A stretch of 64,000 nucleotides of DNA. Source: Polytrichum commune. Lineage: Eukaryota > Streptophyta > Polytrichopsida > Polytrichales > Polytrichaceae. The DNA is taken from assembly GCA_950295325.1 (NCBI GenBank), contig OX485807.1, forward strand, positions 10,321,001-10,385,000, written 5' to 3'. Below, one piece after another: positions 24,655 to 59,776 of the stretch (its first letter is position 1; every line of letters begins with the position of its first letter). The position numbers were made by a program, and so were the translations under genes. The notes beneath the pieces were generated by a model, which saw nothing but the letters and a program-made list of their open reading frames with translations, did no database searches and had not been told where the DNA came from.

Positions 24655-24658
24655 GAAT
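24655..24658. repeat. Putative target-site duplication GAAT (left)
   Basis: GAAT directly precedes the left terminal repeat and also directly follows the right one at 41184-41187. Four matching bases can occur by chance, so this is supportive rather than decisive. Confidence 0.4.
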
Positions 24659-24686
24659 AACACTATATTCGTTATTTGGAGACTTT
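24659..24686 (+). repeat. Left terminal inverted repeat of the 16.5-kb element
   Basis: Begins AACACTATATTCGTTA. All 28 bases are the exact reverse complement of 41156-41183. The next ~30 bases (…TTTTGAGACTATTTA) also match the terminal region of the decayed related element that ends at 59831. Confidence 0.85.
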
Positions 24687-24992
24687 TTGTTAATTTTGAG
24701 ACTATTTAAGGACGTGGCTTTCACATTTATAGGAATGAAAACACTACAAATATGCTATGTTCCCAATATGGAAACAAATATGAAACTCAAATGCATGTAA
24801 TTACACATATAAAAATAGGGAAATGGGACAATTACAACATTTGCATATAGGAAATCGATATCATATTCATTGAAGAGGGTCAAAATACAAAATGCAAGTG
24901 GAATATCCACTATTAGGCCAAAGCCCTAGAAACACAAATCCACATCTATATGTATTTTAATATAGCCTATACATTTGGACCATGAATAGGCG

Positions 24993-26677
24993 TCACTCTT
25001 TTGTTTTTGAAATACTATTATTAGCCTTTGCGGCCGTTTCTTTTTCTTTTGCTTTCATGTCGTCCATGGCTCTAAATATCTCGGCTCCGCGACTGTAACC
25101 TTGTTTATTCCCATTCCCAGCCCTCGAATATATGCCATTTTCCCATATTGGCCGACCCCCTACCGAATAAGTGGAATACGAATGTGTTTGGGAAACCGAA
25201 CGTCTTGCACTCTTTCGTAGGGCCAAATAACGATCAGACTCGCAAGTCGCAGTCTTCAGTGTTCGCCTATCCAATGACGGAGTGGAGGATGCACGTCCCA
25301 CATCCATGTATATTGGGGTCTGAGACAATGACCATAAATATATATAACGACGTGGGTTAGTATAAGTTACGGATGTAAGTCCGAAAAACCCAAGAATTTG
25401 AAATGCACTAAATTAATATGCGGACATCATGAACGAAAAACTTGAGAATGCCAATAGTGGGGCACCTTGGCCTTCGGGGCGGCGGTTTGATCTTCAGGGA
25501 CATCGAGGGGAGTAGACACAAGCACAACCGGGACGTTCGTAAAGGCCGGGACATCAATGTGGGGTTCATCCATGCAAAGACGCCTGGTCGACCGCGGGTT
25601 TCGAACGTGCTTCTCATTGCGGAGGGGAGATGGGGATGGGGGTAGAGCGTAATTGAGCTTTGCAACCTTTGGAGGAGGGCTATCGACAACTCCGTCTTCG
25701 AACCCCGAGTCTTTGGAGTAATCCACGGCAGAGGCGGCATCGACGGCCGAAAATTGAAATAGTGAAGGCATTGAAACGTCGGTCACACCAATGGAAGGGG
25801 AGCTGGGGCCCGGCTGAGATGTAGACATGCCATGTCCGAGACTTTGGGATGCTTGGTGAGGCAACTAAGGCACAAAAATACATTTACAAAATAAGGAGAG
25901 AAATGTTAGATATAAACATGGAGAGTCCAAGTACAGAGCCAAAAAGTATCAAAGTTCTCATACCAATTTATTGAGTTCAGCAAAGCCGTACAACCTCCTA
26001 AATTCTGTATCTCTTGGGCCTAGAGGTCTATTGCCAATACGATTTGAGAGGACAAAATCCGGGACACTTCCGGAGTGATGGGCAAGCCTTCTAATATAGG
26101 GTCCTAATTCTAACTCTAGGAAGTTGTCGTTTCTATCGCCCTCCCAAGGGTTCGGGAAAATGCAGTTGCCCGGGGGGTTGAGAACGCTCTTCCCCGGGCT
26201 GTCGTCAATGAGGAGCGTGTTCTCCGGAGTGGGCCAATAACCTTGGGGGACCCCCTCCAACATCGGGACGCCCACCCAGAGGTTCTTCCTCAGCACCTTA
26301 AGGAATTGAGGTCCGCGGCCTCCTCCGACCTTGGGTACAATGTTGCCGCTACGGTCATAAAGGTCATCGCAGTGTTCTTGACCGAGAAGCAAGCACGGCA
26401 TTGCGAGTTCTCGGAAAAGGAAACTGACGACGGCCTTCGTGTTGTCCATCAGCATGGAGCTCCAGATGATGACATGGGCCAAGCCGAGGACCTCACGAAG
26501 GAAGCACCTCAAGCCGGGCCGGACGCGCACAACCTTCTTGTTAATTAGTGTATCGAAGCGCCCGCCGTAATCCATGTCTTGTGGAGTACGGTAGGGACCC
26601 TTGGACGCACTATTGGAGATATGTGTGGATTGACAAAGCACGCCATTGAGGTCAAATATTATGAAGTTTTTCCTCAT
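24993..26677 (-). CDS. FCP1/NIF-type HAD phosphatase-like protein (transposon cargo), three exons
   Basis: Exons 26677-25964, 25864-25442 and 25319-24993 join in frame (all phase 0) into about 487 residues. Exon 1 carries the HAD fold: motif I 'FIIFDLNGVL' with D9, where the second motif position is Asn (N11) instead of the usual Asp. Then come 'HVIIWSSM', 'LLLGQEHCDDLY' and motif III 'LLIDDSPGKSVLNP' with D158 and D159. This matches the plant 'DLNG' branch of the FCP1-like phosphatases. Exons 2 and 3 are Ser/Pro-rich and basic, without a known domain, but 'YSRGAEIFRAMDDMKAKEK' is conserved in the decayed relative. ATG 26677 is the first ATG before motif I; the frame is open further upstream without ATG. 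The donor after exon 2 (GTTTTT) is weak. Substrate unknown; catalytic competence with D-x-N is uncertain. Confidence 0.75.
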
Positions 26678-26939
26678 AATATGGCTTTGTCTTTCGGCGG
26701 GGTGGCGACATATCTCCGACGGACCCTGTGATGGCACATACTACCTAGGTGAATGGCACTACCCAGGAAAACCAAATGACAAGCATGCAAAAACGCAACA
26801 AAGAAATGCGAGGCAACAAGTATCCGAAGAACTATCCAGTTCAAAAAATTGTATTAATGTGTTTGGTGATATACATTTCGCGAATAATTTACATTGTCAC
26901 TAAAGGTCTCTCCTAAGATTAATTGAGCCTACACTAGCA

Positions 26940-27005
26940 AAATTGGATCCGCCGCCGCGGGCGAAGTCGAGATTCGAACTCGAAAATATGCACACGCCAC
27001 GAAAG
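26940..27005 (-). mobile_element. Possible tRNA-like/SINE B-box segment
   Basis: On the minus strand, TTCGTGGCGTGTGCATAT is followed by TTCGAGTTCGAATCTCG, close to a pol III B box. The stretch lies between the ParB-like gene and the HAD-like gene inside the large element. No SINE tail or duplication was found. Confidence 0.25.
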
Positions 27006-27055
27006 CTGGCTGACTGGGAACTTACGGACGCGCGTCCGTAAAGAGGGAGGCATGC

Positions 27056-30000
27056 TCAAAGGTTGATTACCTCTTCAGCGGTGAGTTCCTCGCCGGCAGT
27101 GCCTCCCTCACCAGGCCCAGTTGCGGGGCCAGGTTCCGGACGCGCGTCCGTAAATTCGCCCTGCGTGTCTTCCACCACCAACAAATCGGCTCCACCTGCT
27201 TGCGACGCTTGCGTGCCGACGAAAGGTTGATCCTCATGCGAGGAGTCTTGGCCCCCCCGCATATGTACATCTTCATCGGCGAGGGGGGCGTCGCCCATGT
27301 TGACATCTTCATCGTCTCCTATGGCGGGAGGGGAGGGCTCTGGAGCGGCAGCAACCTGGGGAGGGGGCGGGACAACCAACGCGGGGGCCGTATAGGTGTG
27401 CTCCGGTATGTACACCGTGTGGCTGCTAGAAGGAGGGCGCACCAGAACGGGGGGCACGGACATGGCGGGCTCGGGAGCTGCATACACCACTTGGGGTCTT
27501 GCCTGCAAGCTTGCCATCATGCTCATGAATTGTTGGCTTTGAGCCAAGAATTGTTGATTTTGAGCCATGAGGTCGGCGTGCCTCCGAGCAGACTCCAACC
27601 TAGCTTGTTCCATCTCAGCTTGGATGGCGGCCATCTTCCTGGCGTGCTCTTCGTTGGCCTCCCGGAGCCGCATGTCAAGCTCTTCCTTCATCCTCTTCTC
27701 CATCTTCTCGTCCAGCTCGGAGACGGACATGGGCTCTCTCTTCACCTTGCCTGGCTCAGAAGGCAAGGCGGAGATGGAAGCGTACAGCCTCACCTCATCC
27801 TCGTCTTCATTTGAGAGTTCCAAGACGGCGCCTTCGGGGTATTCGTTGTAAAGCGTCTTGTTCCTCTGCCGCCGGCTTGCACGGTAGGAGTCGATATCGG
27901 GCCTCGATATCAACTCTAGCATATCTCTACCTTCCATGGGCGGGAGCGCCGCCTGCTCACTGGGCTCTCCCCCACCAGAGGACGCCGTGCATCCGGTTTC
28001 TGCAGCAAGGTCCGCATCCCTCTCCGCCATAAGCCTTGCAGCACGAGATGGCCCCGCAGTGGAAGGAAGCCCAACTCGAGAAGTGGGAGTCCCAAAGGGT
28101 GATAGACTAGGCATATTTTGAGGCACCCGAATTGGAGTGACGTTGGGCTGCGCCTCCTCTGCATCCATGTCGTCTTCACCCAGGAGATACGCCACGCGAT
28201 ACACTGAATGACGAGCAAGACCGCGCAAGTCTTCCTGCCTGGAGGGCTGTCCCCTTGGAGACATTGGATCATCGTCTCCATCGCTGCCCCACCCGCCTGC
28301 ATGAGAAGGCTCCTCTCTGGAGGCAAGAGGAACAACAGGATGTGGGGTAATGATATCCAAGAAGTCATTGAGATCCATTTTCTCTGCAAGCTTCCTGTGA
28401 TCTTTGCACTCATCCATGTCGCCAGCCCCCACAAACGAGTTAACCTGCAACCCAAGCATCTGCACCAAATAAAAAAAGTTAGTGGATTGTTGGTATCAAG
28501 ATTGAATTGACGGGGAAGATGGACATACAAACATGATGCAGTGTGCATTTTACGGACGTGCGTCCGTAAAATGCACACTGGGTTAGGTTTGATAACTTTA
28601 CGGCCGCGCGGCCGTAAATATGTACTGCAGCGCGGCCGCAAAGTTGAAATGAACTAGGTGGTTAAACTTTACGGTCGCGCGGCCGTAAAGTTGCATCAGG
28701 TGGAGGCATGAAAGTTTTTTTAAGTACTTACCAATGCCGCATAAACAAATTTGGTCCCCCCGAAGACGTTGTACACTGTCTCACTCATCACAGTCACAGC
28801 CTTCAATACTCCTATGTAAAAGTCCATTCGGAGCTCGGTTGCCGGGCAGATTGCGAACATCGCCTCGTCCATTAGCTCCTTGGGGTGTGGAGGCGGCAAC
28901 TGGTAAATTTTCTTGAACACGCTCTTCGCCTTTACAGGCAAACGCCCACTTGGCGAAGACTTCCGTGTCAAGAAATAGAGACATATAGCGCCGACCTGCT
29001 TTACCCCCCTTGCTTCTTCGATGACAGCGATGCCTTCCGTCTTCGCGGGGACGTATGTGCTGTGGAAGATATTGTATTCGAGATCCATCGTCGAGTTGTA
29101 TAGGTCGACGACCGCTACGGATCTCTCTTGGTCCACAATCCACAGCCACACGTTTGGCTCCAGAAGTGCAGGGGACCGAAAGCTCTTGAAAGCTTTCAGG
29201 AAGCTGTCGTAGAAAGGGGTCCCTGGAGGAGGTTGTTTCCAAGAATTTGGAAATGCACGGAAATCAAAGATAGCAAAAGGACAACCCCGGGGGTCATCTC
29301 TCACAGTGGCCCGCGAAGCATGGGTGTCCCACTTGCCGAACTTGAATTGTGATGTCACAGCGCAAAACCTCGCGACACCCTCGAATTTGGCATTATTCTT
29401 TCTATCGAGGAAGTGTTTATACAAAGTTGTCTCCCTTTCGTCGATAGAACCTTTCTTCTCGTTCTTCCTTGAGCGCTGGGCCAAGAACGGAGATGCTGCT
29501 CTTATCAATGCCTTCATTGAGACGCCATTGATGTGGTATGCTATTTTCAATCCCCTCCAGTTGTCCCACACAATGTCACCATCTGCATCTGTAAGGTTGT
29601 AGGCGGGTACCAATTTGCCTATCTCCCTTATAGCCAATGTCTTCTTCTTCCTGTATTCGCACCATTCCTTAATATGGTACGTTGAAGGCTTCATAAACCT
29701 TGGTCGTTTGAGGAAGATTTTTGGATACGGCGTTGTCCTTCTCGGAGTCTCCTTAAGAAGGTGTTCTGCCGCCTTGTAAAGCTCGGCATCGAGCAACCCT
29801 TGGAGGGGACGGAAGAACTCTCTGAGGATTGGAGGCACCTTAATCTTCAAGTCCTCTTTGTACTTCTTCTCCGTCTCAAGGTTGATGAGTTCTCCGTTGC
29901 TGTGTGCATGGAAGACGCGCATCCAGATAGCCCAGGTCCTACCCGACGAAGTGATGAGCTTCAGTTCGCCCTTCAGATCTTGCACTGTCTTCATGCCGCT

Positions 30001-31546
30001 TTGCTTCATGTCAATGCTTGAGAACTTCGTCACAATCGCACTGCTGAATGCCTGCAAGTAGAGAAACAAATGAGTTGTTGAAATGAGATCAAAAAATGGA
30101 ATGAGAACCGTCTAGTTTACGGACGCGCGTCCGTAAACTTGGAGCACACAAAGAATAAAGGGAAAGTTTACGGACGCGCGTCCGTAAACTTGGAGCACAG
30201 AAAGAATAAAGGGGAATTTACGGACTCGCGTCCGTAAATTCATTTGGGAATATTACCTGCCATTTGGGATTCTTGACGACTGCGTTGTCCCTCTCTTTTG
30301 GTGGACAGCCGTGCTCCTCCCACAAGGTCCTACCAGCCACGATGTTGGCTGCCCATAACGCCTCAAACGCTTTGATTTTGTTTGTCTGGTTGAGGAAGGC
30401 AGATATGGCGATGAGCTGATTGGAGTCCTCTGAATGCACGAGAAGTGCCTTCCAATATCGGATTGTGGGTTTCAGAGGGCTCTTCCAATTATCGTCTGCG
30501 AGGAGAGCTTTTGTCGCTTCCACGCTATGCTGGCCGTCCACGATGTAGAATTCCCCTTGCTTAATAATTGGCCAATGTTCTGGTGTGACCTCCACGATTG
30601 GATCCTTTGGGATCACACATATGGTCTGCCGGTCAGCTTTCGGGTTGTTCATGATGTTGTTCATCTGCCACCAGACCCCGCTCTCTTCTTGCACCCGAGT
30701 ATTCATACTTTCAGTGCCCTGGTGGCATTTATAAACATCCACGTCAAATGTGAAATACATGCCCATTGGCCAGCAGGCTTTCGTTTTTTCGTCGAACTCT
30801 TGTTGAATTTTTGTTGATAGATCAGAGTTCGGGCGTTCTCCTTTCTTCAGAAGTGGTGCGACAGTAAGGGTGGAGCTGACATCTGGACCTTCGGTAAGTC
30901 CAGATGACTCCATCTGTGAATGGGAGCGTTTACTGGATGGTCTGCTCCCTCTCGATGCTCCACTTTGGGACGGTTTTGATCCTTCCGGGACTGTCTGTGG
31001 AACACACGGTTGTCGTTCAGAAACGACTTTCTTCTTCTTTTTCCCCTTTCTGGACTCCAGGACTGCCCCATTCACTCTCGTGACATTGTTGAGGAGTCTT
31101 CCAAGCCGCTTATCCGTCCAAGGTGCATTGCATGCATAGTCTTGGAATTCAGTTGCAAGATTGAAGCAACCCGCATCCGGGCTGCCATTTTCGCATTCAG
31201 CCTTGTGGAATGGATGTCTGTGCTCATGAAGAAGAATTGTGACTCTGTCATCTTGTTTTTCAAGATCTATGACGACATAGTCACCTTGGGCCACTCCACA
31301 CTCTACTGACCAATTTTTAACTCTAACCCATTTATCTACATCTATATCTTTGGTATTCATTTGATACCCAAATCTAAGTACGAATGTGTCATTCTCAAGT
31401 TTCTCTACGTAAACTGTCCAGTTGTCTACTGTGTCTTCGACTGGCTTGTAGTGATCGTTGTGGCTTATATCTTTGATGGCGGGTGGAAGTGGAGGCGGAA
31501 GAAACTCAAATGCCTGGTCAATTGCAGGTCTTTTTGTAGATGCCAT
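27056..31546 (-). CDS. Large nuclear-type protein with ParB-like 'DGQHS' motif (transposon-encoded), three exons
   Basis: Exons 31546-30257 (430 codons), 30051-28732 (440) and 28459-27056 (467 plus stop) join at phase 0 with GT/AG introns, giving about 1337 residues. Exon A holds an uncharacterised N-terminal region, a basic KGKKKKK stretch, then 'GEFYIVDGQHSVEATKAL' with D337-S341. This resembles the DGQHR/ParB-like fold, where the motif forms the nucleotide site; the role here is inferred only. Exon B has a conserved 'PFAIFDFRAFP…VWLWIVDQE' block of unknown function. Exon C is acidic and Pro-rich, with a charged coiled coil (about 75 residues, KMEKRMKEELDMRLREANEE…). Exons A and B have clear counterparts in the decayed relative at 53.46-56.96 kb. 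The ATG at 31546 is preceded by the densest palindrome array. Confidence 0.7.
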
Positions 31547-31591
31547 CTACAAATGCAAAAAACAATGCTTAGCATCATGATCAATGTCAAG

Positions 31592-32267
31592 TTTACGGAC
31601 GCACGTCCGTAAATTTTCTACAGGTTGTTTTGAATTATAATGTCAGAATGAACTATCCGAAAAGATTTTGCATATGTCAATACGAAATTTCACATGTAGT
31701 TTACGGACGCGCGTCCGTAAACTATCAACGGGTAGTTGGGGATGAGAATCTCAACTATGAACAAAGATAAGATTTAATAAGATAGTTCTAGTTTACGAAC
31801 GCACGTCCTTAAACTAGTAGTTGGGTTTACGGGGTTAGCACTAATTTACGGACGTGCGTCCGGAAACTAGGAATGGAGTTTACTTGGATGTCACTAGTTT
31901 ACAGACGCGCGTCCGTAAACTAGGAATGGGGTTTCCTCGGATGTCACTAGTTTACGGACGCGCGTCCATAAACTAGGAATGGGGTTTCCTCGGATGTCAC
32001 TAGTTTACAGACGCGCGTCCGTAAACTAGGAGTGGGGTTTACTTGGATGTCACTAGTTTACGGACGCGCGTCCGTAAACTAGGAGTGGGATTTACTTGGA
32101 TGTGACATCCAAGGCGTCCGTAAACTAGGAAAATATATTGTCCATTAGTAATAATATTGTTTTTTAAATATATCCAAAACTTACGGACGCGCGTCCGTAA
32201 GTTCTGGATATATGTTGCATGCTTCACCCACCTGGTGCGTCAAAGTTTGCGGACGCGCGTCCGTAAA
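31592..32267. promoter_or_regulatory. Palindrome array upstream of the ParB-like gene
   Basis: Ten full palindromes and a half-site (near 32112) lie within 45-720 bases upstream of the ParB-like ATG. Between about 31844 and 32078 they are arranged in near-tandem ~53-bp units that share the spacer phrase GGATGTCACTAG. Position directly in front of the start codon suggests a promoter or operator role; this is inference. Confidence 0.5.
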
Positions 32268-32344
32268 CTTCAAGCCCTACATTGGTTAATCTGGTCCTTG
32301 TTAAGAGGGTTCCGGATTTTCAGGAAGGTGGTTTTGTATATGAT

Positions 32345-33140
32345 GCAAAATACAAGCAAACCAGCAAAGAACAAAAAAAACCAAGCAATCAAACAATCCA
32401 GCAATCAAACAATCAAACCAGCAAGTAAAAAAACAAGAAATAAACTAAAACACAATCAAACAAGCAATCTATGTACTTATGCAAGAGGCCAGCAAGTAAA
32501 CAAGCACCCACGCCAGCAAACAAAGCAAAGCAAAGCAGCAAGCACAAGCAAATCAAACAACTGTAAGCAAACAAACACACAAGCAAAAGAGAGAAAAAGC
32601 AATCACAAGCAAGCACATAAACAAAAGATTAAAAAACAATCACAAGTAAGCACAAGCAAGCACAACCAGCTAGCAAGCACAAACAATGATACAAGCAGCA
32701 GACAATCAAACAATTAAACAAGCAAGTCAAAGCAAGAAATTAACTAAAACACAATCAAACAAACAACCTATGTCATTATGCAAGAGGCCAGCAATCAAAC
32801 AAGCAACCAAGCCAGCACAACAAAACACAAGCAAGCACAAGCAATGCAAAGCAAAGCAAAACAAAGCAAATCAGCAAAGCAAAGCAAATCAGCAAAGCAA
32901 AGTAAAGCACAAGCCAAGAAAGCACAAGCAAAGCAAAACACAAGCACAAAGCAAAGCAAAGCAAACCAGCAAGCACAAGAACAAACACAAACACAAACAA
33001 CAAACAACCTTGTGAGGTGACCAGGAGCGCCAACAGCAAGAGGAGCGCCAACAGCAAGAGGAGAGCAAGAGGAGAGCAAGAGGAACGCCAACAGCAAGAG
33101 GAGAGGAGCGCGGAGAGAAGCGCCAACAACAAGAGGAACG
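32345..33140 (+). repeat. T-poor CAAGCA/AAGCAAA low-complexity tract
   Basis: About 670 bp of degenerate CAAGCAAGCACAAG and AGCAAAGCAAA repeats with very few T on the plus strand. It is followed by GAGCGCCAACAGCAAGAG repeats to 33140. The open frames here in all phases are products of the repetitive composition (Lys/Gln/Ser-rich on one strand, Leu/Cys-rich on the other) and are not taken as genes. Confidence 0.75.
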
Positions 33141-33403
33141 CGGGGAGGAGAGGGTTTAGGGTGACAACAACAAACCCTAGAGAAGCAAGAGAGGAGCGTG
33201 AGAAGAATGTGAGGAAGAAGAGCGAGAGAGGGGAGGCGGAGAAATGAGAGGGTGAAAATGGGCGAATGAAACCCTAAAACCCTTAAGTACTCAAGAGGAG
33301 CCCTCCAAACGCCCCGACTCCCAACGTCCCATCCACCCCGCACCCCATTGCCACGTGGCAGAACCCTATAGGTTCATATTGGAGAGGTATGTGGCACACC
33401 TCT

Positions 33404-35069
33404 CCCTCTTTAGTAAGACACGTTTGGAAATCACAAAAAATGTCGTATTATCGACATGTTGTCTTCTCGTTAATATGACAAACGCTGTAAAATTGTCGTA
33501 CTATTGAGCGAATAAAAAAACAAAAGAAATATGAGCTTCAAAACACACACGACGGATGTAAGCAATTATTATATATATTGTATGAAATAATAACGTATAA
33601 CTTCAAACAAATACAAGCGTTCTCAATAATTATTGAAATAAGAGTTCAGTGATCTGAGTCTAGTGTTGCCTACCTAAGTGAAACAAGTTGTCTAATAAAA
33701 AATTAGACAACAATGATGCATAACGTTGACGCTTTAATATTGTACGTGAAAAAACATCATCCAAATGAACCAAATGCAAATTAACATTAAAATCAAAGCC
33801 TTCTGCATTATTGATTCCCAAAACGGCATCCACCAACTCAACAACCATTATACACACTTCTTGCTCAATATCATATGTATATAAGTATTAGTTGACATGT
33901 CACCATCATCCAGTCGCAACATCCAATTACACTAAATATCACTAATCCTATGAAAGTAAGGTACTTTTAACTGTGAACTCAAACACTAAATTTCAACTAT
34001 TAATGGTAATAAGTGGAAGTGACATATAATGTGTACCATTAATTATATGATTAAAATTTAACAATGACAAAAGGAGAAGGGACATGGTAGTAACATAGCA
34101 TGTAAGATACAAATTGTAAAAACATAGCACCAGTGACCATTGGGTTCTGCACCTTGTACTCGAATATAGTCTTTGTTTAAAATAATCTCTTGAAACCCTT
34201 ATTTTCATTAAATAGTGGCAGGCTCTTGGTCTGAAACCTAAATATCACCCTTATTTCATTTTTTCCATGTCGACATAAATATTTATATATTTCACATTTT
34301 CATTCGTAGGTTTATTTGGGAATTGTTGTTCTGCCAACCGACTATGGTGCTAACCCAACTCACACCATATTACTTCATAACTCCACATTTGATATTAGTC
34401 CTTCAATGTAGCATCATATTTATGACAAAGCCCAACTAACATAAGGTGAAGATGCATGACCTAGAGTCATATTAGTCACCTTTCATTTATTAATACCCTA
34501 ACCAAACCCATTCTACAATACAAATCCTAATGTTTATTAAGTTCACAATGATAAGCCTAGGGAAGTTTTCGGTATTGAAACTATAGGACAATATGAGGTT
34601 GAGTAACTCAAGTGTAACATTTTTTTGTCGAGTTGTTGCAATATGAAGGTAAGTGGACTTTAAATGACTAGTACACTAACTATCGCTTATTATTACGAAT
34701 TATGATATGCTACAACTATTTATTGTATGATAGTATATCATTGTCCACAATTAAATTACATCAATAAATTTTTTTTAAAGATTAAGCATTTTGTAAATAC
34801 AAACATCGACATATGCCACTCTTTGGACTCCTCTATCAAGAGTCTTTGAAAATATTTGTATTTGTTTGGAGTTATTAGCTCTTATTTCATATCATCTATA
34901 TTGCCTATTAAACTTGTTGTATATATATCTTTGCGCTCATTTTTATTATGATAATTTCGTATTCCCTCAATAATATGACAACTTTACGCCACTTGTCATA
35001 TGAATGAGAAGACGACACCTAGATAACATGACCTTTTTGTGTTTCTCACACTTGTCATACTAAAGAGGG
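33404..35069. mobile_element. Nested element with ~115-bp inverted termini
   Basis: The left end begins CCCTCTTTAGTA and runs through 'AAATGTCGTATTATCGACAT' and 'GTTGTCTTCTC' to about 33520. The right end (about 34955-35069) carries the same blocks inverted, finishing TACTAAAGAGGG. The 1.67-kb interior is AT-rich with only short frames and no recognisable transposase. It is a non-autonomous insertion within the larger transposon, and no target duplication was seen. Confidence 0.65.
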
Positions 35070-35505
35070 TGAACAATAATGACATTCATGTTCGGTTTGG
35101 ATGAATTTGCATGTTAATCTCTTTAATTCTTGGAGGACATAACTCTCGTCCGTCACTTGAGGTCATCCTAAGCCGGTATCAATAACATAACTTCGAAGTG
35201 CGAGGCTTGGAAGAAATTTCACCATATTTTGAGAAGAACGACATAATACTATGGGTTGAGGGTTTAGGGTTTAAGGGGTTTAGCATGAATGCAAGTCTAG
35301 AACCTAGGGTGAGCATTCAACTACCCTACTTCTTGTAATCATGAAGCCAAATTGCTTGCCTCTCATTTGAGAATTTTAATGATAAAATGAGGTAGTGGGG
35401 GATGTCAATCCAACTACACTCTTTGGAATCTTGTGTCAAGAGTTCTTGAAAATGTTTGTATTTGTTTGGAGTTATAAGCTCTTATTTCATACCATCTAAT
35501 AGGGT
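34816..35505 (+). repeat. Pair of ~90-bp direct repeats
   Basis: CACTCTTTGGACTCCTCTAT…TTTGTATTTGTTTGGAGTTA at 34816-34907 recurs at about 35418-35505 with few changes. One copy lies just inside the right end of the nested element and the other 350 bp outside it. This suggests a local duplication around the insertion. Confidence 0.6.
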
Positions 35506-35693
35506 TGAAGTCATATGCCTATGATATTATCTTGCACAACATTATGAATTAATTCAATCCCTTTGAACATAGGTCTAGTAAGCTTGTATTAAAAGTGCAC
35601 GCAAGGGTATGTATTGAATTTACATCCCTCTTATATATTAAACAACCATCGGGATTCATTGAATCCTTTCACGAGCTTGTATATCACCTACAT

Positions 35694-35960
35694 CAAGTAG
35701 TAGCAAACTGTTTTTTATTCTAGAGTTTTGTTTCCATGGTGACATGGATTGATGTGTTAAGTACTCCATTAAAGAATACCAATTAATATATAAGATCTTC
35801 AAAATCTTTCATCAAAAGTATATGTTAAGAGCAAATGGCTAAAGCCGGCTTGGAACATAAATATTATAATGATCTTCAATGTTTTGAAGCCTTAATTGTT
35901 TTCATATTTGTATCCCTTCATTTCATTTTAAACTTGGGATCACATCAAAGGATAACAAGT
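35694..35960 (+). repeat. Dispersed repeat (partner at about 62411-62690)
   Basis: Shared blocks are AGTAGTAG…, CCATGGTG, TAAGATCTTCAAAA, AATGGCTAAA, ATGTTTTGAAG, TTTCATATT and AAACTTG…CATCA, in the same order and orientation as in the partner copy. It is about 65-75% similar by eye and non-coding. Confidence 0.55.
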
Positions 35961-36379
35961 CCCGGCTAAATCTTTTACTTGCATGTAAGGGGTACAATAT
36001 TAAATGCAAGATGAGAGGAGAGAACATGATATTCTAATATCATAAGATTGTATGCAAAACAATTAAATAGTTGCTAGATTATTTCCGAAGCACATATATT
36101 TTTATAGTCCATGGACTACAAATGTTGTTGTGGTGGTTGATTTTTTATACGATTCTATAATTTTTTGTCCACAAATTCTACAATGAACTCTTAATATTGG
36201 GTACTCCAATAATATAAACCCCCCCTAAACAATGTTTATTGCTCATATAATATTAACCAACTTGCTTTGTTGTACACCATAAATATATAGATGTCTTTTG
36301 CTTTGTCATTATGTGGAGTCATGGTCAAATGCATGTTGGCCGCCATGAATACACATTCCATTGCAAGGCTGGCATTCTC

Positions 36380-37438
36380 CATGTTGGAATATTAGGTTTT
36401 TGTTTTTAGGAAAGAGTTGGCGGCTAGTATCCTATGCTGAAGAAAGGATCCAAGGGAAGACGACGAGTACTTAAAGGAAATCCCCCCACCAAGGGACTCT
36501 TTTTGCATCTCAGATGTGGGTTGCGCTCTTGAGACCCTTGTAGTGTGGTGGATACTTGTTTCGCGCAGGTATAGATCCTATTGCAATGAACCTATTATAC
36601 CCTAAACCCATATTCGATTTGCACTATCTGGATCTCTGAATGCGATGGATTCTATTTCTGACAGGTATTGTTCACGCTTCAAGTGTCCTATTATGACGCC
36701 GCAAATTACGGAACTTTACGGACGCGCGTCCGTAAACATTACATCTCTTGACTTATTTGCTTATTGAATATCTCATATCTTATTGAATATCTCAGTGGCT
36801 CGTTGCATCATTGAGTATCTCAATCTATTTTCATTGGCTCATTGAGCATTTACAAGTAGGTTTACGGACGCGCGTCCGTAAACATGCATCATTTTGGTGT
36901 CACATGGTGGTATGTCATCTACAATGTGGGCTGTGAATTATTATTTGTTTTGATAGTATGCATATTTGTTCTGATGAATATTTACGGACGCGCGTCCGTA
37001 AATCTTGAACCTTTTGCATATGTTCTAGTAATGAGGTAAAGGTAGGTTTTCGGACGCGCGTCCGTAAACATACAAACCTCTTGCATCTGTTTAGTAATGA
37101 GGTAAATGTATGTTTATGGACGCGCGTCCGTAAACAGACAAACCGTTGGTACACATTCAAATACATTACTGGTAAGGCCAGGAGGTAAAATTTAGTGTAA
37201 ATGTAAATGGGGCTGGGACTTCTTGGTTTCTTGCAACCCTATTTGTTTTGGACACAATTGTCATTTGACATAGGGATGTTTACGGACGGGCGTCCGTAAA
37301 CATACATTGTCTAATTTGCCAAGACGTTTGCGCCTAACCCTGACATCTCTTATCAGATAATGATTTGCGGACGGGCGTCCATAAACATACACTGCTTATA
37401 TTTTATCTCATTCTTCATTTGGCTCTCTTGTAGTGGCC
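36380..37438 (+). promoter_or_regulatory. Upstream region of the transposase gene with seven palindromes
   Basis: Palindromes lie at 36715, 36861, 36981, 37047, 37113, 37279 and 37363. The last ends 54 bases before the ATG. This mirrors the array in front of the divergent ParB-like gene. A TTGTAG acceptor-like sequence directly before the ATG (37428-37433) suggests that a 5' leader intron is possible. Confidence 0.45.
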
Positions 37439-40400
37439 ATGGATTCCGACGTCGGTGATAGTGCGTCCGATTTCTCCTCGGAACCGTCAAGCTATGCTAG
37501 CGAGTTTGAGGATGTCGTGGAACAGGAAGCTACAAATGGTGTGGCCGATGCAGATGATGAAATCATACCACCATGTGAGGGTTATTCGCGGGAGCAGTGG
37601 GTTGATCTTGATGTTGTACTACTCAATGCATGTGTTGTTCCCGTGGCCAACGGTGTTTGTAGGAACTCGAATCCAACGGATTGTATTGATGCAAAACCCC
37701 TCGGGGAGGACGATGTTGGGGTGTGCATATTGAACTCCTTACTTCCATCGGAAGTGCCTCCTGGTTGGAGGTTCTCTCTCCGTCGATGGCCTTTGCGAAG
37801 TGTTCATCACGATGGTGTGAGCTTGTGGGATCAATCCCGCCGATTTGAGCAACTGCAACAGTCTTTGTTCGCCACAATGCGTCCCAGACAAGGTCGTCGT
37901 AAATATGATTCCGTTCGTGTGCCTCGTGAACCCACGCAGCGTCGTCGAGATCATACATTGGGAGACACATCTATTAGGTCCGTAGCCACAAAGGATTGTT
38001 GTGCGAAGAAGTGCTGCCAACTATTTCCCCGTGGCAAAATCAAATCTTTGAGGCAAGAGATGTGGCTTGCCGACTTTCGTATGCGGTCTGCAAAGAAACT
38101 TGAAGTACATCGCAACATGCACTTGGATGCCGGATGTTGTAAGGTTGTGACCTTGGAAAATATAGAAGTTTGTTGCCGGGCATGGTACATTATTCATGCC
38201 GTTTCAAAGGCAGATTTTTATAGGTTCCGGAACTACTCGTTGCAAGGAAGGTGTTATCGGTTCCATGGCAACTCAAGTACAAAGAAGCCCAAGGAGGCAA
38301 CACTCCAAGCGGCTGCAACTTTGTCAACCATCATTATGCCATTAGCGGATGCGATGCCACACAAGACACGCACTTTGCCGTCGGGGGAAAAGGTTGTTCA
38401 GATGGTTTTACCCACAGGGACAAAATGGAAGAACATACTCGTGGATGTTAATGAAGTTGGTGAAAATGTTGGATGTGGGCCGATTTCGTTGTCAAAATTG
38501 AGTGTGATCAAGAATCAACAGTTCGCTGAATACATTACGAAGAGACCCGGGGATAAGTTTGCTAGGTGTTCTACTTGTGAAAAATATAAAGGCCTTCGAG
38601 ACGCACATCCAATAGGGACCGAGTCGCACACCAGACATCAACAGAAATACATTGAGCATGTCAACAACCAGGAGGCACACCGTCAAGACTACTACAAGAA
38701 TCGCGCCTTATCGATAATGAGGCCGAACGAGGTGTTGACAATCATTCATGACAAAATGGACCATGCGAAGACCGCTTGCCCTTGTTATGCATGGAAAATA
38801 AAGGCCACAGATGGATATTTCAAGCTGCCAATATCTGTCATAGGTTCGTTGGTTTTCATTTTTTTGGCGTGCCCACATACTCATTTTTAAGAGTTACGGA
38901 TGCGCATCCGTAACTCGTCTGTGCATGGTTGTTCCTTACTTGCGGCAATATCATATTTCCTTCATATATATGATATTGGAATGTACTTCTCATTTGTATG
39001 TCTTAATTCAGGTATGATTGCACATGGCCATGTGGACATCAAGTATGCACATTATGGCTTGGATTTCTATCCAGGCGACGCCAATCATACCGTAGGGTCT
39101 TTTGCAAAACTTCTACGAGATCTTGAGAGTCCGCCAACATCATCCTCGCGTGCTCTTTTTGTTGGATGTGGAACAACTCCGATTTATGAGGCTATGCTAG
39201 AGGGGAAGGAAGTTTGTCTATCTTCACTTCAAGAACCGCCTGAACAACCCGTTCTTGCTAAACCTTTGCCTCGAACTCTACACGTGCAACTTGACAATTG
39301 TGCCAAAGATAACAAATGTCGATACGTGTTTTGTTTCTGGTCATTGCTGGTAGCCAAGGGCATTTTCAAAGAAGTGTTTGTGTCTTTTTTGATGGTTGGC
39401 CACACGCACGATGACATCGACGCTTCATTTGGACGTTGGAGTATGAAGTTGCACGAGGAGGATTTTCCGACAATTCCTCTTCTCATGAAATCATATATGG
39501 ATTTGGACAATGTGCCAGTCATTCCACATTTGATTGAAGAAGTGTCCGATTTCAAATGGTTTATAAAACCATTCATTCTTAAGGGGTCTGACCGACTAGT
39601 GGGCCACACCAAGGCTCAACAATTCCGATTTTATATGCGTGACGATGGTCTGCCCGCCATGCAATTCAAAGTTTTGTGCACTTCCCCGAATTGGGGTCCG
39701 GAAGAAGGGATACTCATTTGGCGCAAAAACGAAGATGGCAAATGTGTGCTACCTGATGGTGAGCCGAAGCCTTGCACACCCAGCCCCATGAGGAATGGGC
39801 CAGAAATCATCAAAGGTATATCCGGATTCATTGAGTATTGGAAAGAATTGTGCGAGGAAGACATCACAAGACGTGTTAGGGATACCCACGAACCATTGAT
39901 TGCGTATTGGGATCGCATTCGCACGGCATTGATAGCATCCGATGTTGATACACATTCATGTTTGACACAAGGGTTTTGGCCACAAAGTCGAGTGACAGTC
40001 GTGGAATCTGAGACCATGTTGTTCAACAATGGGGACGTTCGTGAAGAGTTCGCTGCGGACGATCATTATGTTGGCCCTGCTCGCAATCGACCGGAGCCGT
40101 TGTTTCGTGTTGGGGTTGATTGCCACGAAGGTTATTTGCTGCTCGTACGTGCTGGGGATGAGGAGCATCCCAAGCCAATTTGGTTGGTGAAAGCATTGTC
40201 ATCACCAAACTTTGTTCCAACTAGTCCAAATTTTCGCCAAATTGAGGTGGAATATTGCCGTCCAAGCACCAAAGATCAAAATGTGCTCCAGACATATTTA
40301 GGGTGGGACACCAAAAAAGGTTTCAATGGACAATGGACTCATCATACGAACCAGTTTGGATAAACACAGATACCATACTTTGTGCTTGGAAACCACGCAA

Positions 40401-40539
40401 AGGTTCGAAATCAGAGACAATGACCATCCCGCAAAAACATATAGATTTTGCCAAAGACAACTTGGCACGTATCGCAGCTGCGGAAAACGATCTTGAAAAT
40501 GGAAATGAAGTTGAAGATGAAGATGAAGAGGGGGAATGA
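37439..40539 (+). CDS. DUF7869-type transposase-like protein, two exons, with a 3' frameshift
   Basis: Exon 1 is 37439-38843 and exon 2 starts at 39012; the split codon joins cleanly as GGT (ISVIG|MIAHGH). The ATG at 37439 is used because the in-frame GTG just upstream is not a eukaryotic start. The N-terminus is acidic and Ser-rich. Then come 'CSTCEKYKG' (near residue 377) and 'IIHDKMDHAK', and in exon 2 'LHVQLDNCAKDNKCRYV' (D near 563) and 'FLMVGHTHDDIDASFGRWS' (about 598). This LDN…GHTHxDID pattern is characteristic of DUF7869 proteins, which have an RNase-H-like transposase/integrase look. Read straight, the frame stops at 40363 after about 918 residues. One extra A in the A6 run at 40313-40318 would extend it in frame to 40539 with an acidic tail, about 977 residues. 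The 168-bp intron holds a perfect 26-bp palindrome. Confidence 0.75.
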
Positions 40540-41155
40540 TATTGACGTACGTCGGGACCAAAGTTAGTTGAAATGTGTATTTGTTTGTCATTAATATATG
40601 ACATTGGGGTTGAATATTATATTAGACACATTTTATAGATTACAACTAGTATAATATTATTGCATGACTGTATTGATTTACGGATGTGGAATCACCCTTC
40701 CCATGCGCTATCAAATGTTTTCTAGTATATGTTTATATTTACGGATGTGGAATCCAAACTATTTAATATTGCATATTATGTTAATTTGTAAATTCTAATT
40801 AACATTGTCAATTTATTTTAAGTATTGTTGCAATTGGGATGTGCCATTCAATTCAACCACAATAGGCCAAGAGCTTTATGTTTCGGATGCGATTCCAAGA
40901 GTCAATACATATAAAATTAGATGGCTATTTATGGATTCATTACTTTTGTTCAACACAATCCCAAAAAAACAAATAATCGTGTAATTGTGTCATTTGATTC
41001 TCATCCCCATACTTACTATATTTAGTAATATATAGTTCCATCGCATATGGATTTCTAAAACATTATGATGTAATTGTTCCCGATGTTCCCGATGTTCCCT
41101 ACGTTCACAATATTCGCATCCGAAACTATGGGTCCAATTTATTTTGAGACTTTCC

Positions 41156-41183
41156 AAAGTCTCCAAATAACGAATATAGTGTT
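41156..41183 (-). repeat. Right terminal inverted repeat of the 16.5-kb element
   Basis: Exact reverse complement of 24659-24686, ending …CGAATATAGTGTT. It is followed directly by GAAT (41184-41187), the possible target duplication. It lies about 620 bases after the end of the transposase reading frame. Confidence 0.85.
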
Positions 41184-41187
41184 GAAT

Positions 41188-53459: not shown

Positions 53460-54600
53460 CTTAAGGGTGGGGGGTTTGGCCTCACAATGCTCTGGGTGAC
53501 TACGTGGATGTTATTCTCGAGAGTTCTCATGTGCAGAATGTCCACATGTTCATGCACCAGTTCTCTGAGCCATTTGACCCCTTGTACGTAAAACATTCTT
53601 GCATTGAGCCAGATGTTATAAAACCAAAGTCTATCTTCATAGATGGAAGCATTTCAAACACAAAGGTTGCAAGTAGATTTCCGAAACTCAAACATGTAAT
53701 CAACACAATAAACAAGGCTCAACAGAGCAAGTCCAAATCACAACAACATGTGAGGAGGAAAGCCACAACTAAAGAAGGCACAAGGATCGTCTAGACCTCA
53801 AATAGTGAGGAAGCCTCGAGCGGTTCCAATCGACTCAAGAAGAACTACTCCTACGGCAACACTGGCTAATAGTGAGATGCTGACGTCATTAAATAGCCGT
53901 CAGACAACTCTTTTAAAGAGGGCAAGAAAATCGGCATCAGTCATGACTAACAAGACAATTTCCATGGAGCTGCGCATGCCAAAGCTTGGACAAGAAGTGG
54001 ATGCATTTGAGATCCAAAAAATCGTGAAAAAATTCACAACCAAGTGCTCCCACTGTTTTTTCATGGGTAGAGATTTCAAGTTCGACGTCAACATCGCTCA
54101 GTGCCACCTAGTGCCACCAGAGAAGTGTGTTCGGACAATAGAAGATGCCTACGTCGATTGGATAATCGCTTAGATAGTGAGCGAGCAATTCAAAGACGAT
54201 ACGCAAACTATTGTAATCATGCCCCAAGGACACAAAAGAATGCCTACCCAGGATATGTGGCCGTCAATTCAAAAAGGAGATTTTTGGCTAATTGATGGTT
54301 AGTACAGTGTGGAAGCGTCAGAAAAAATCCAACCCATGACTGAGTGGGATGATCCCAATCATCAGAAAGAAAAATTGAAGGTGTGGAAGGCCTTGGTGGT
54401 GTGGTCTAACAATGAAACCACACTCAGCGACATCTTCTGTTATGTCAACATGGGAAACAAGAAATGGGCCTATCAAGCTTCATGAATTAGGAATATCATG
54501 GCCTCGTGGGAGGTGTGGGAGGTGTGGGAGTTCTACAGCATGCCTCCCAAGGAGAGGGAGAATGCGAAGGACAAGAATCCAAAGTGGGTGGTGAGTATGG
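53460..54600 (+). pseudogene. Decayed ParB-like transposon gene, exon A
   Basis: Counterpart of exon A at 31546-30257. Segments align in order across frames: GDYVDVILES…QFSEPFDPLY with GDYVVIDLEK…HRHPFHKAE, then FEIQKIVKKF…FKFDVNIAQCH with the STKIQQEF…FTFDVDVYKCH block. FWLIDG*YSVEAS follows, matching FYIVDGQHSVEAT, then KVWKALVVWSNN and PPKERENAKDKNPKW before a GTGAGT donor near 54594-54600. It is broken by several frameshifts and stops. The motif glutamine is a TAG stop (54300-54302) and the next His is Tyr. Overall identity looks low (roughly one third), so this is an old relative rather than a recent copy. Confidence 0.75.
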
Positions 54601-54659
54601 TTTGGGTAGATCGACCCAAACTCTTGTTTTGTTTTATTGTTTGGGTCAATTGACCCAAA
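54601..54659. repeat. Intronic palindromes of the second element (TTTGGGT…ACCCAAA)
   Basis: 54601-54620 is an imperfect palindrome with 7-bp arms (centre AGATCG), and 54640-54659 is a perfect 20-bp palindrome, TTTGGGTCAATTGACCCAAA. A third, TTTGGATCGACCCAAA, lies at 57363-57378. The first two sit directly after the exon-A donor, the same place where the first element carries its own, different palindromes. Confidence 0.8.
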
Positions 54660-56765: not shown

Positions 56766-56960
56766 CCGATTCCCCTTTGGAATGATAGACTTTAGGAACA
56801 TTCCATTTGTTTGAGGGCACCATGAGCACCCCTTCTACGAGCCCTTCTAATCGAAGTTCCTCGACTATGCAAGTCCCAAATTGAGGGAGGTTGACTTCTG
56901 GTTGTGGATAGTCGAGGATAGGAGGGCAAAGCAGGTGTATGAGATTGTGAGGAAATTATA
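56766..56960 (+). pseudogene. Decayed exon B remnant of the ParB-like gene
   Basis: Reads FPFGMIDFRNIP…HPFYEPF*SKFLDYASPKLREVDFWLWIVEDRR with internal stops. It aligns to CPFAIFDFRAFP…TPFYDSFLKAFKSFRSPALLEPNVWLWIVDQER in exon B of the intact gene. Only this conserved block is recognisable, which marks it as the most constrained part of exon B. Confidence 0.75.
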
Positions 56961-57079
56961 GCCTGGTTATGTTGTTTCCAAATTTCACTACATTGTTACA
57001 TCGGCGGAGGGGGTGTATACGACCCTAAACCCAAAAAACGGTCTTGGACCTCCCTTGAAGTAGTTGTCGGGCTTAGAGG

Positions 57080-57260
57080 ATGGCCCGCCGGCGCCATGTC
57101 TACTTCTCCTTGGCTCTCCTCCCCTTGCTGGTCGACTGCTCCATCTTCCCTGTTTCTCCTCCTTGGGCTCTCAGCCCTTTGCTGGTTTGTTGCTCCGTCT
57201 TCTCCACTTCTCCTCCTTGGGCTCTCAGCCCCTTGTTGGTATGCCGCTCCTTGGTCCTGT
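57080..57260. repeat. ~60-bp tandem duplication
   Basis: The phrase CTCCTTGGGCTCTCAGCCC…TTGCTGGT, with flanking GTCGACTGCTCC/TTGTTGCTCC, is repeated about three times at roughly 60-bp spacing. Open frames on both strands here are products of the repeat. Confidence 0.55.
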
Positions 57261-57879
57261 TGCCAGTGCGGCATCCTCTCTGCATGCTCGAGCCCCTAAT
57301 TTTGTTCTAGTATGATGCAGGACAAGAGACTCCACACGAGGTTATATATTGAGACCCACCAGTTTGGATCGACCCAAACTTCCTGGGTCATTGTCTTGTT
57401 GGCATGTTCGTGTCCCCCTTGCTAGGAGGAATTGCTTCCCCACCCCAACCCCATCCATGTCACTCACACCCTTCATCCTCCCACGATCCCTCTATCTCGC
57501 TGTGCTTGATTACGCTCGATCTTGGCGGCGCACAAACAATTTTGTAGATGTAAAATTAGGATAGTGTGAATGGCTCATTCAACGCGGTTCCCCCCTAGGC
57601 AAATTATACATAGAGAATTGTAAGAATAAAATTATTATTTTTGGTGCCTATATGTTTGTTTTTGTGTTCAAATGTATCTTGTGAGCTATTCCCCTCGTAT
57701 ATTTATGATGCCACCAATGGTCCAATTGTTCTTGTGTTTGCACAAAAACTCCGTTATGCTTCAAATGGACATAGCATGACATAGCCATCGTCGCCTTCTC
57801 TCGCTTGTCTCCGCATGGATAGGAGCATAGCGTTGCAGCTCCCCACTGCTCCTCTCCAAGAAGTGTGGAGGACAGTGTG

Positions 57880-59483: not shown

Positions 59484-59776
59484 GCCATCTAGGCGGAGGG
59501 GTTTGGGCCATAGGCAAGATGATTTTGGGTCGCACTATCCAATGGATGTGTGGTGTTGGCATACTATTCAATTTACATGTCATACATTGTAAATTCTACT
59601 TGCAATAATATGAGTGTCATACAATTTCCCCTTTAATATGATCTAATGTTTGGATTGTCCTACCTAAACCATCTTGATGTGGGTTCTTATTTGGGTTCTT
59701 GATATGAACACCCGCTTCAAAGTATTTGCATCTTCCAACATTCTCCAATATCTGTGTGATTTTATCCATGTTCTTA

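Follow-up and report, generated by a model that had tools for sequence, protein, structure and literature searches.

The window, the whole 64,000-nucleotide stretch of Polytrichum commune DNA that was analyzed, contains a 16.5-kb segment (24659-41183) whose 28-bp ends match as inverted repeats at 28 of 28 positions and are flanked on both sides by GAAT, as reported in the initial annotation (Table 1). The segment harbors a ParB-like gene with a HAD-like gene downstream of it on the minus strand and, divergent from these, a gene encoding a DUF7869 domain. A search of the host genome with the 28-bp end, allowing up to three mismatches, returned 992 forward and 1002 reverse matches. The reversed-pattern control gave none in either orientation, ruling out a chance origin of the inverted ends. 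Other copies enclosed the same three genes and were flanked by 4-bp duplications. The target-site duplication was exact for 20 of the 21 pairs of perfect ends in the host genome, the exception being located at C4:8945685, and a 4-bp duplication was also present in one copy each of four related elements, designated s2, s3, s4, and lineage B. Uninterrupted empty sites were detected elsewhere in the genome for 3 of 13 insertions of the family (best 40 of 1459 candidates scored; the window's own site lies outside the 13). The shared ends, enclosed genes, duplications, and empty sites bear out the proposal that 24659-41183 is a single mobile unit, present in many copies in the P. commune genome, and fit a cut-and-paste DNA transposon with terminal inverted repeats.

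Table 1. Features of the 16.5-kb element and of a degenerate relative in the same window.
Feature	Position	Strand	Remarks
Left target-site duplication GAAT	24655..24658	.	20/21 exact-end pairs with exact 4-bp duplication
Left terminal inverted repeat (AACACTATATTCG...)	24659..24686	+	28/28 match; genomic copies
Two open frames downstream of HAD exon, perhaps its 3' exons	25427-25864, 24993-25412	-	Matches in s2 and s3
HAD/NIF (FCP1-like) gene, main exon, motif I DLNGVL (DxN)	25958..26740	-	PF03031 3.8e-13; dN/dS 0.18 (s2), 0.28 (s3)
2 palindromes, ParB gene 3' end	27021..27154	.	One inside open frame
ParB-like gene exon 3 (open frame), motif II/III-like start (our reading), then low-complexity	27056..28495	-	dN/dS 0.27
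3 palindromes, ParB-gene intron 2	28549..28689	.
ParB-like gene exon 2 (open frame), putative degenerate beta-class DNA-methyltransferase-like domain	28720..30111	-	Inferred from NVFGGTK and PFAIFDF; dN/dS 0.12
3 palindromes, ParB-gene intron 1	30116..30238	.	One overlaps exon-1 frame tail past presumed splice site
ParB-like gene exon 1 (open frame), box VDGQHSVEA	30218..31546	-	Exon end near 30250 by homology; 95 scored genomic matches; dN/dS 0.10
10 palindromes upstream of ParB-like gene	31592..32267	.	53-bp period in part
7 palindromes upstream of DUF7869 gene	36715..37385	.
DUF7869 gene exon 1	37439..38843	+	dN/dS 0.16
DUF7869 gene intron, 168 nt, GT...AG	38844..39011	+	One palindrome inside
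1 palindrome, DUF7869 intron	38893..38914	.
DUF7869 gene exon 2, DUF7869 domain (LDN...GHTHDDID)	39012..40363	+	PF25273 1.8e-39; dN/dS 0.18 (s2), 0.07 (s3)
DUF7869 gene C-terminal end, out of frame in window copy	40246..40539	+	81/87 genomic matches have longer open frame
Right terminal inverted repeat	41156..41183	-	28/28 match; genomic copies
Right target-site duplication GAAT	41184..41187	.	Same GAAT as on left side
Degenerate fragment of divergent relative	53465..59831	+	ParB-like (31%), exon-2 pieces, HAD (34%), end at 59804-59831

The gene layout was examined within 40 kb of 95 scored matches to the ParB-like exon. A HAD gene was located downstream in 86 cases, a divergent DUF7869 gene upstream in 66, and both in 63, the wrong-orientation controls giving counts of 2, 0, 1, and 1. 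The remaining 32 of the 95 lacked HAD or DUF7869 inside 40 kb, and 33 of 119 HAD matches lacked a ParB match, in both cases partly because only the best candidates were scored. None of the 28 HAD matches of the 60% class had a scored ParB exon upstream, as expected for the s3 type, a ParB-less sub-family retaining two to three degenerate palindromes. The definition of this sub-family is based on one complete copy, which was fully read and has also moved, and on these 28 matches. Thus, the ParB gene is dispensable in cis. The s4 element (17,306 bp, duplication CCCA) retains the three-gene layout with identities of 31% for ParB, 37% for exon 2, 39% for HAD, and 59-65% for DUF7869. Lineage B (about 25.2 kb, duplication TACA) has different ends, the position of the one on the DUF7869 side being established from 15 of 15 further copies, and the same gene layout, with identities of 33% for HAD and 33-50% for DUF7869. 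Its ParB exon had no match with that of the window and was recognized by position and by eye (NGQHTLAA). A further locus (C3:1622001-1642000) harbored DUF7869 and had no ParB or HAD match and none of these ends. The element is shown to be a mobile unit belonging to a family of copies, with a conserved three-gene layout and purifying selection on the main exons.

The identification of the DUF7869-type gene was upheld by a Pfam match (PF25273, 1.8e-39) covering positions 38891-40363 of the plus strand. Interpretation of its 3' end as a further exon and intron was rejected in favor of a frameshift relative to s2. The acidic motifs of DUF7869 are conserved in the window, s2, and s4. An AlphaFold model of the core was a failed fold prediction (pLDDT 32.5), and the RNase-H fold is putative. 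The DUF7869 alignment gave no credible match in a PDB profile search and no relatives in viral contigs or genome contigs, and no paper on DUF7869 was found in the literature searched. DUF7869 is the likely transposase of the element and may be of the DD(D/E) type, acting on the 28-bp ends. A domain of unknown function is hereby tied to a proven mobile element.

Since the HAD gene was present in all five full elements examined, presence alone cannot tell which protein is the transposase. The initial annotation had designated the HAD product a phosphatase. The NLI/FCP1-like domain is there (PF03031), whereas motif I reads DLNGVL in the window, s3, and s4, and DVNGIL in lineage B. FCP1/NIF-type HAD phosphatases carry DxDx(T/V) at this position. 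The phosphatase label is therefore doubtful. Among plant NIF/FCP1-like proteins, with which PF03031 is shared, the product of host gene C2:4740143 (29-33% identical) also has the DxN form (LLVLDVNGLL), unlike the host copy C2:43149594, which has DxD (DVDGLL). The copies in the transposons make up a separate group that is much amplified. The HAD-like protein may derive from a NIF-type host gene of plants and help transposition or its regulation. No credible match was found in the search with the window's HAD exon. Comparison of the two downstream frames with s2 and s3 gave dN/dS values of 0.38 and 0.20 for the first and of 0.91 and 0.14 for the last, which is uncertain.

The extent of the ParB-like gene was corrected to 27056-31546. 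The ParB-like designation was partly sustained. For the window copy alone the best relevant matches were a PHROG ParB-like partition family (0.05) and Pfam DUF6551 (0.2), the latter ranking behind the unrelated Peptidase_S24 (0.053). Pfam scans of the exon returned no ParB entry, and matches in other libraries were weak or absent. A profile built from six sequences of several lineages gave E 0.0016 with one reference set, with none of 100 shuffles equally good and an HH probability of 16%. The signal was absent with a smaller reference set (10 of 100 shuffles equally good), and 2 of 60 shuffles were equally good with a longer protein. The box reads DGQHS or NGQHT in the lineages read. An AlphaFold model of the exon, for which the single relative from the window was supplied, was a failed prediction (pLDDT 30.6). 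Alignments of the ParB exon and exon 2 gave no credible PDB profile match and no relatives in viral contigs, and the search with the lineage-B ParB exon gave no credible match.

In the ParB-like product, a degenerate methyltransferase-like domain appears to be joined to the ParB part. Fusions of ParB and a DNA methyltransferase in phages (e.g. L127, L172) show the same order, a ParB box followed by the methyltransferase, with DxFGGS/T near its end. They are very remote (best E 0.0016), and the Arg of GxxR and the DPPY are not kept in the plant protein. The catalytic motif of beta-class N4/N6 DNA methyltransferases is (D/N/S)PP(Y/W). It was not seen at the place where we would expect it by our own placement of the motifs; the moss proteins read PFAIFDFRAFP / PFGIIDFRSIPG there. 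The domain order is that described for the transposon Sola1-1_Ec32 (PMC12477816), and it could be proposed that the protein is an active enzyme placing N6-methyladenine or N4-methylcytosine in the element that encodes it, as has been suggested in the brown alga. A motif-I-like GDCIFNVFGGTK at the expected place and profile matches whose order is that of phage methyltransferases are consistent with such an activity. The apparent lack of the DPPY-type motif, the absence of the usual Asp from the putative motif I, and the weak motif-I profile score (E 0.052) make it improbable. We favor a methyltransferase-like half that would have lost its catalytic motif and would serve structure or binding.

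The window element contains 26 copies of a 22-bp palindrome, mostly outside exons: 17 of 26 sit in two promoters, that of the ParB-like gene and that of the DUF7869 gene, and 9 of 26 in introns or at the ParB-gene 3' end. Palindromes of this type 1 number 21 in s2 and are absent from s4 and lineage B. In s4, 39-41 palindromes of a second type were found, which are absent from the window element, s2, and lineage B; s3 has one type-2 match at up to four mismatches. A third type is present in 24 copies in lineage B, where 2 of 23 were inside open frames, and in none of the other four elements. Thus, s4 and lineage B retain the gene layout and the 4-bp duplications with entirely different palindromes at like positions. 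The genome contains 1641 type-1 and 11,977 type-2 sites (controls, 0). Among the perfect type-1 sites listed on C1, 52 of 53 were no more than 13 kb away from a scored ParB exon; the area so defined represents 0.47% of C1. The arrays change in step with the ParB-like gene, as expected for a DNA-address system belonging to the element. Growth of tandem repeats or hairpins might have produced the palindromes incidentally, in a duplicated segment where the three genes are merely neighbors. This would account for the partly tandem arrangement (36-135-bp period); such an origin is hardly credible in view of the 4-bp duplications, the empty sites, and the different palindrome sequences at like positions in three lineages.

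We propose, at roughly even odds, a giant transposon whose ParB-like protein recognizes the palindromes found in its own lineage and thereby maintains expression of the element, with DUF7869 as the transposase and the HAD-like protein as a helper. Binding would involve two half-sites of 9-11 bp. The bound protein would most likely keep host silencing out or undo it, like VANC in the VANDAL elements of Arabidopsis. The palindromes could instead be ordinary autoregulation operators, for example for a repressor acting on the divergent gene pair, devoid of any anti-silencing role. The concentration of sites in the two promoters fits that scheme, which the sites in introns and at the 3' end, present in other lineages too, render rather unlikely. 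The CpG observed/expected ratio is 2.72 inside the palindromes and 0.56 in adjoining non-coding DNA; this retention of CpG also speaks against simple operators, though any conserved site would show it. We regard as unlikely, to a slightly greater degree, that the protein serves in transposition or segregation, bridging palindromes to fold the element or partitioning it once excised, in the manner of ParB at parS. Such a function would agree with the ParB-type box, the clustered palindromic sites, and the occurrence in lineage B of sites as close as about 230-240 bp to each end. It is at odds with the window element, in which all palindromes are more than 2.2 kb from either end, with the association of most palindromes with promoters and introns, and with the mobility of the ParB-less s3 copy.

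VANDAL elements are Mutator-like transposons and offer the closest parallel to the anti-silencing function that we favor. Their non-coding DNA carries short motifs in tandem arrays, located ahead of the transposase and within introns of two genes, VANC and VANB; relatives use different motifs, and the VANC regulator evolves faster than the transposase (PMC5735166). The moss element shares motif arrays in introns and upstream of the transposase gene, lineage-specific motifs, and a faster-evolving regulator. VANC carries DUF1985/DUF287 and its quoted motifs are not palindromes, unlike the moss ParB-like system (PMC5735166), and we read the two systems as probably convergent rather than homologous. 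More tentatively, a bacterial ParB-methyltransferase fusion may have been converted, in a group of land-plant transposons, into a catalytically dead anti-silencing factor with sequence specificity, with a parS-like address rewritten in each lineage as whole arrays and present at thousands of positions in the genome. The VANC principle would then have been invented twice, independently, and DUF7869 would be a transposase domain as yet unnamed.

The moss ends contain CACTA (they begin with AACACTA), and giant EnSpm elements occur in algae (PMC12477816). Membership of the CACTA/EnSpm superfamily was rejected, the duplications being of 4 bp instead of 3, and no Tnp2-type domain was detected when the main open frames were scanned with Pfam. 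CACTA/EnSpm transposons generate 3-bp duplications, whereas Sola-1 transposons generate 4-bp duplications, as does the moss element (20 of 21 pairs). The closest published element is Sola1-1_Ec32 of Ectocarpus, a 21.5-kb giant Sola-1 transposon with a ParB-like and DNA-methyltransferase gene opposite the transposase (PMC12477816); the likeness is one of gene arrangement. In the literature covered, a eukaryotic transposon carrying ParB was noticed only in that paper. The gene combination, which the initial annotation did not know as a described plant superfamily, is in part precedented, the HAD gene and the lineage-specific palindromes being features of the moss element that the available text does not mention for Sola1-1_Ec32 (PMC12477816). 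The moss element also differs by its occurrence in a land plant and by a methyltransferase motif that looks degenerate. A J-domain gene, auxilin-like, and 14 NAC loci (28 exon matches) are in keeping with a land plant that has few NAC genes. The ParB/methyltransferase accessory arrangement of algal transposons thus extends to land plants, where a third gene is conserved beside it in this family. The palindrome arrays and their change between lineages, the methyltransferase-like part, the DxN motif, the frameshift, and the Sola-1 precedent are new with respect to the initial annotation. Three natural protein-palindrome pairs are available so far, between which specificity seems to have been switched. 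They open to direct test the question of how selfish elements escape silencing without harm to the host, and might yield sequence-specific DNA-binding or epigenome tools for plants.

The window also contains a collinear, divergent relative at 53.46-59.83 kb, as the initial annotation had noted. ParB- and HAD-type pieces are present there in the same order, but the relative is a degenerate fragment with a single end, and no DUF7869 match was found in positions 42,001-64,000. It harbors two decayed type-2 palindromes, at 54601 and 54640.

The two ends of the 16,525-bp window element are complementary at 28 of 28 positions (24659-24686 versus 41156-41183) and each adjoins a GAAT. Direct comparison thus bears out the inverted repeats and flanks described in the initial annotation, which had also proposed that a genome search with the 28-bp end would recover full-length copies bordered by 4-bp duplications. 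With up to 3 mismatches, this end gave 992 forward and 1002 reverse matches in the host genome (408 Mb, 64 contigs), and the reversed pattern, used as a control, gave 0 in both orientations. By manual count, at least 83 of the matches listed are perfect. Forty-two perfect ends were matched by hand, yielding 21 convergent pairs spaced by 16.5 to 43 kb, and the flanks of 20 pairs were inspected together with the window element as the 21st. An exact 4-bp duplication of variable sequence was present immediately outside AACACTATATTCG in 20 of these 21 pairs, as proposed, but not at C4:8945685 (C1 to C4 designate host contigs).

Empty sites were searched for 13 insertions, other than that of the window, with a single query of flanks joined by one duplication copy; 40 of 1459 candidates were scored. 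Uninterrupted matches spanning the junction were found elsewhere in the host genome for three insertions: C2:43624120 (2 places, 100% across 140 and 139 bases), C3:35656529 (28 places, 99%), and C3:8817954 (10 places, 94-95%, the match extending a few bases into adjacent query blocks). These empty sites are paralogous and lie within repeats.

Genome searches with the ParB-like, HAD, and DUF7869 exons gave 95, 147, and 87 scored matches, respectively, which were combined by script. For 86 of the 95 ParB matches, a HAD match lies no more than 40 kb downstream in the same orientation (79 of these 86 at 3.2-3.6 kb); a divergent DUF7869 match was located upstream of 66, and both partners were present for 63. 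These counts are lower bounds, since the searches score best candidates only; wrong-orientation controls gave 2, 0, 1, and 1. The 28 HAD matches of about 60% identity were treated separately: none had a scored ParB exon upstream, versus 86 of the remaining 119. The three genes travel as a group in these searches; in the s3 copy, a search for a ParB match was negative. The identical score of 23 HAD matches (529.1 bits) points to very recent amplification, although some may be segmental duplicates.

The dN/dS ratios were computed from one tblastn match per exon, with full copies of a second (s2) and a third (s3) sub-family as references. Values were 0.18 (s2) and 0.28 (s3) for the main HAD exon; 0.10, 0.12, and 0.27 for exons 1, 2, and 3 of the ParB-like gene (s2); and 0.15-0.18 (s2) and 0.06, 0.07, and 0.15 (pieces, s3) for DUF7869. 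These low values indicate purifying selection on the main exons. For two open frames located beyond the HAD exon on its downstream side, the ratios were 0.38 and 0.91 with s2 as reference and 0.20 and 0.14 with s3.

Genes of the window element and copies of related lineages (C, host contigs; L, host loci).
Feature	Position	Strand	Length	Domain, structure, or target duplication
HAD gene, NIF/FCP1-like domain	left-most	-		PF03031, 3.8e-13
ParB-like gene	middle	-		three large open frames, read as exons
DUF7869 gene	right-hand	+		PF25273, 1.8e-39
DUF7869 intron	38844-39011	+	168 nt	single intron
s2 full copy	L041+L042		17,343 bp	AAAT
s3 copy	C1, L043+L044		9,730 bp	TTGT
s4 copy	C4:41908980-41926285		17,306 bp	CCCA
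Lineage B copy	C2, ~3656111-3681275		25.2 kb	TACA

The s3 copy has HAD and DUF7869 matches, the DUF7869 frame being interrupted. In s4, all genes are present in the same order between the same AACACTATATTCG ends, with identities to the window element of 31% (ParB), 37% (exon 2), 39% (HAD), and 59-65% (DUF7869). Open frames of Copia-like appearance, judged by eye, adjoin this copy on its right side (L051). The ParB relative that lies in the window at 53.75 kb has its nearest counterpart in s4, and 150 matches of its kind were scored. Lineage B also has the same gene order (HAD 33%, DUF7869 33-50%, and an exon-2-like frame 24% identical to that of s4), with different ends forming a 24/24 inverted repeat. 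Its ParB exon, recognized by eye at the expected position, gave no tblastn match with that of the window. The duplication, read in one copy, could be of 2, 4, or 6 bp; since the DUF7869-side end is exact to ...CCCCAT in 15 of 15 further copies, which diverge from the next base on, it is 4 bp. Immediately beyond the right end, a ParB-like N-terminal piece (C2 ~3681806-3682486, L203, minus strand, 33% identical to the window exon) probably belongs to a different element. At C3:1622001-1642000 (L200+L201), a DUF7869 gene near the Pfam profile was found, and this region had no match to the window's ParB, HAD, or ends. Six copies of a distinct 9+2+9 palindrome, GGTGAGGCANNTGCCTCACC, possibly a fourth address type, are located about 6 kb upstream of this gene.

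Both the DUF7869-type gene and the HAD domain annotated initially were recovered by Pfam, but the phosphatase activity then ascribed to the HAD protein appears doubtful, motif I being of the DxN rather than DxD type (DLNGVL in the window, s3, and s4; DVNGIL in lineage B). The host NIF gene at C2:4740143 reads LLVLDVNGLL and is 29-33% identical to the transposon HAD, and a second host copy (C2:43149594) has DVDGLL; capture of such a gene is a plausible origin. Relative to s2, a frameshift near the 3' end of the window DUF7869 gene places the last ~60 codons out of frame, and 81 of 87 DUF7869 matches have an open frame exceeding the window's 490 residues.

For the ParB-like protein, library scans of the window exon gave weak matches to a PHROG ParB-like partition family (0.05) and, in Pfam, to DUF6551 (0.2), ranked after an unrelated Peptidase_S24 match (0.053); the s2 exon gave YEATS (0.018), and the lineage B exon no ParB-type match. 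The ParB box reads DGQHSVEA, DGQHSVMA, DGQHSVEA, and, in lineage B, NGQHTLAA. For a reference set, 72 open frames were taken from 80 viral loci listed as carrying the motif V(L)D(L)FGG(S/T)G, and 3 of these frames contain a ParB box by pattern; once 18 loci related to one of these had been added, 10 ParB-methyltransferase sequences were retained. Against the pooled set, a six-sequence ParB-region profile aligned with the ParB core (E 0.0016, HH probability 16%, 0/100 column shuffles as good); no signal was detected against the 10 fusions alone (10/100 shuffles as good). For the longer protein, the best match in the pooled set again paired the two ParB boxes (E 0.013, 0/60 shuffles), and the next best paired the two motif I stretches (E 0.052); against the 10 fusions, motif I was best (E 0.095, 2/60 shuffles as good). 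Exon 2 terminates in SETVYNVFGGTKFVYAALVS (window) or GDCIFNVFGGTKPVFAGM (s4), and exon 3 opens with a stretch resembling methyltransferase motif II/III. DFRAFP or DFRSIP occupies the presumed position of the catalytic DPPY-type motif. Judged by these motifs, we read the product as a putative ParB-methyltransferase fusion in which the methyltransferase is probably dead. AlphaFold models of the ParB exon and the DUF7869 core were uninformative.

The window element contains 26 copies of TTTACGGACGCGCGTCCGTAAA (type 1, up to 4 mismatches). Ten lie upstream of the ParB gene and 7 upstream of that for DUF7869; introns hold another 7 (1 in that of DUF7869), and the remaining 2 are at the 3' end of the ParB gene. 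One of the 26 falls within an exon as bounded, and another overlaps the exon-1 open-frame tail past the presumed splice site. None occurred in 20 first-order random sequences. There are 21 type-1 palindromes in s2, and s3 has two to three degenerate palindromes. In s4, 39-41 copies of TTTGGGTCGNNCGACCCAAA (type 2) occupy the corresponding places and type 1 is absent. Lineage B contains neither type, and has 23-24 copies of CCACGGGTGNNCACCCGTGG (type 3). These again lie upstream of the two genes, within the ParB-gene region, and in the intron of DUF7869; 2 of 23 are inside open frames, and the outermost are ~230-240 bp from the ends. Genome-wide, 1641 type-1 and 11,977 type-2 sites were found with at most 1 mismatch (controls, 0). 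For C1, 53 perfect type-1 sites are listed; 52 of them have a scored ParB exon no more than 13 kb away, and the DNA this close to such an exon makes up 0.47% of the contig. CpG is 2.72 times expectation inside palindromes, versus 0.56 in adjoining non-coding DNA and 0.82 in exons.

Since the window element and s4 have identical ends but ParB proteins only 31% identical and entirely different palindromes, whereas both ends and palindromes differ in lineage B, we attribute the two codes, ends and palindromes, to separate proteins. DUF7869 is the more conserved of these and would correspond to the element ends, and the faster-evolving ParB-like protein to the palindromes. The array anatomy resembles that of VANC motifs in Arabidopsis: VANC21 is reported to be concentrated on the non-coding DNA of the element that encodes it, with its motifs arranged as tandem repeats within VANC and VANB introns as well as ahead of the transposase gene, and different motifs serve related VANCs (PMC5735166). 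By this resemblance, anti-silencing or element-specific expression control is, in our view, the likeliest task of the ParB-like protein. The principle of transposition is not new, and the arrangement is a variant: Ectocarpus Sola1-1_Ec32 carries a ParB-methyltransferase gene opposite its transposase, with no mention of a HAD gene, which the moss element has, in the portion of that report consulted (PMC12477816). The moss element is the first case of this arrangement that we have found in a land plant; it also has a third gene that is conserved, and palindrome addresses that differ between lineages. In the literature searched, whose coverage excludes most subscription journals, no paper on DUF7869 was found and, among the matches listed for ParB in eukaryotic transposons, the Ectocarpus report alone was relevant.

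Within the element's intergenic region, imperfect inverted repeats of 39-84 nt (33401-35498), with no blastn match in s2, may be a nested, decayed insertion. Elsewhere in the window, open frames at 14277-16821 (-), with no convincing Pfam match, resemble a hAT-type transposase. A 911-residue open frame at 181-2916 (+) has a J domain at its C terminus (DnaJ 0.00068), resembles plant auxilin-like proteins, and is probably a host gene.
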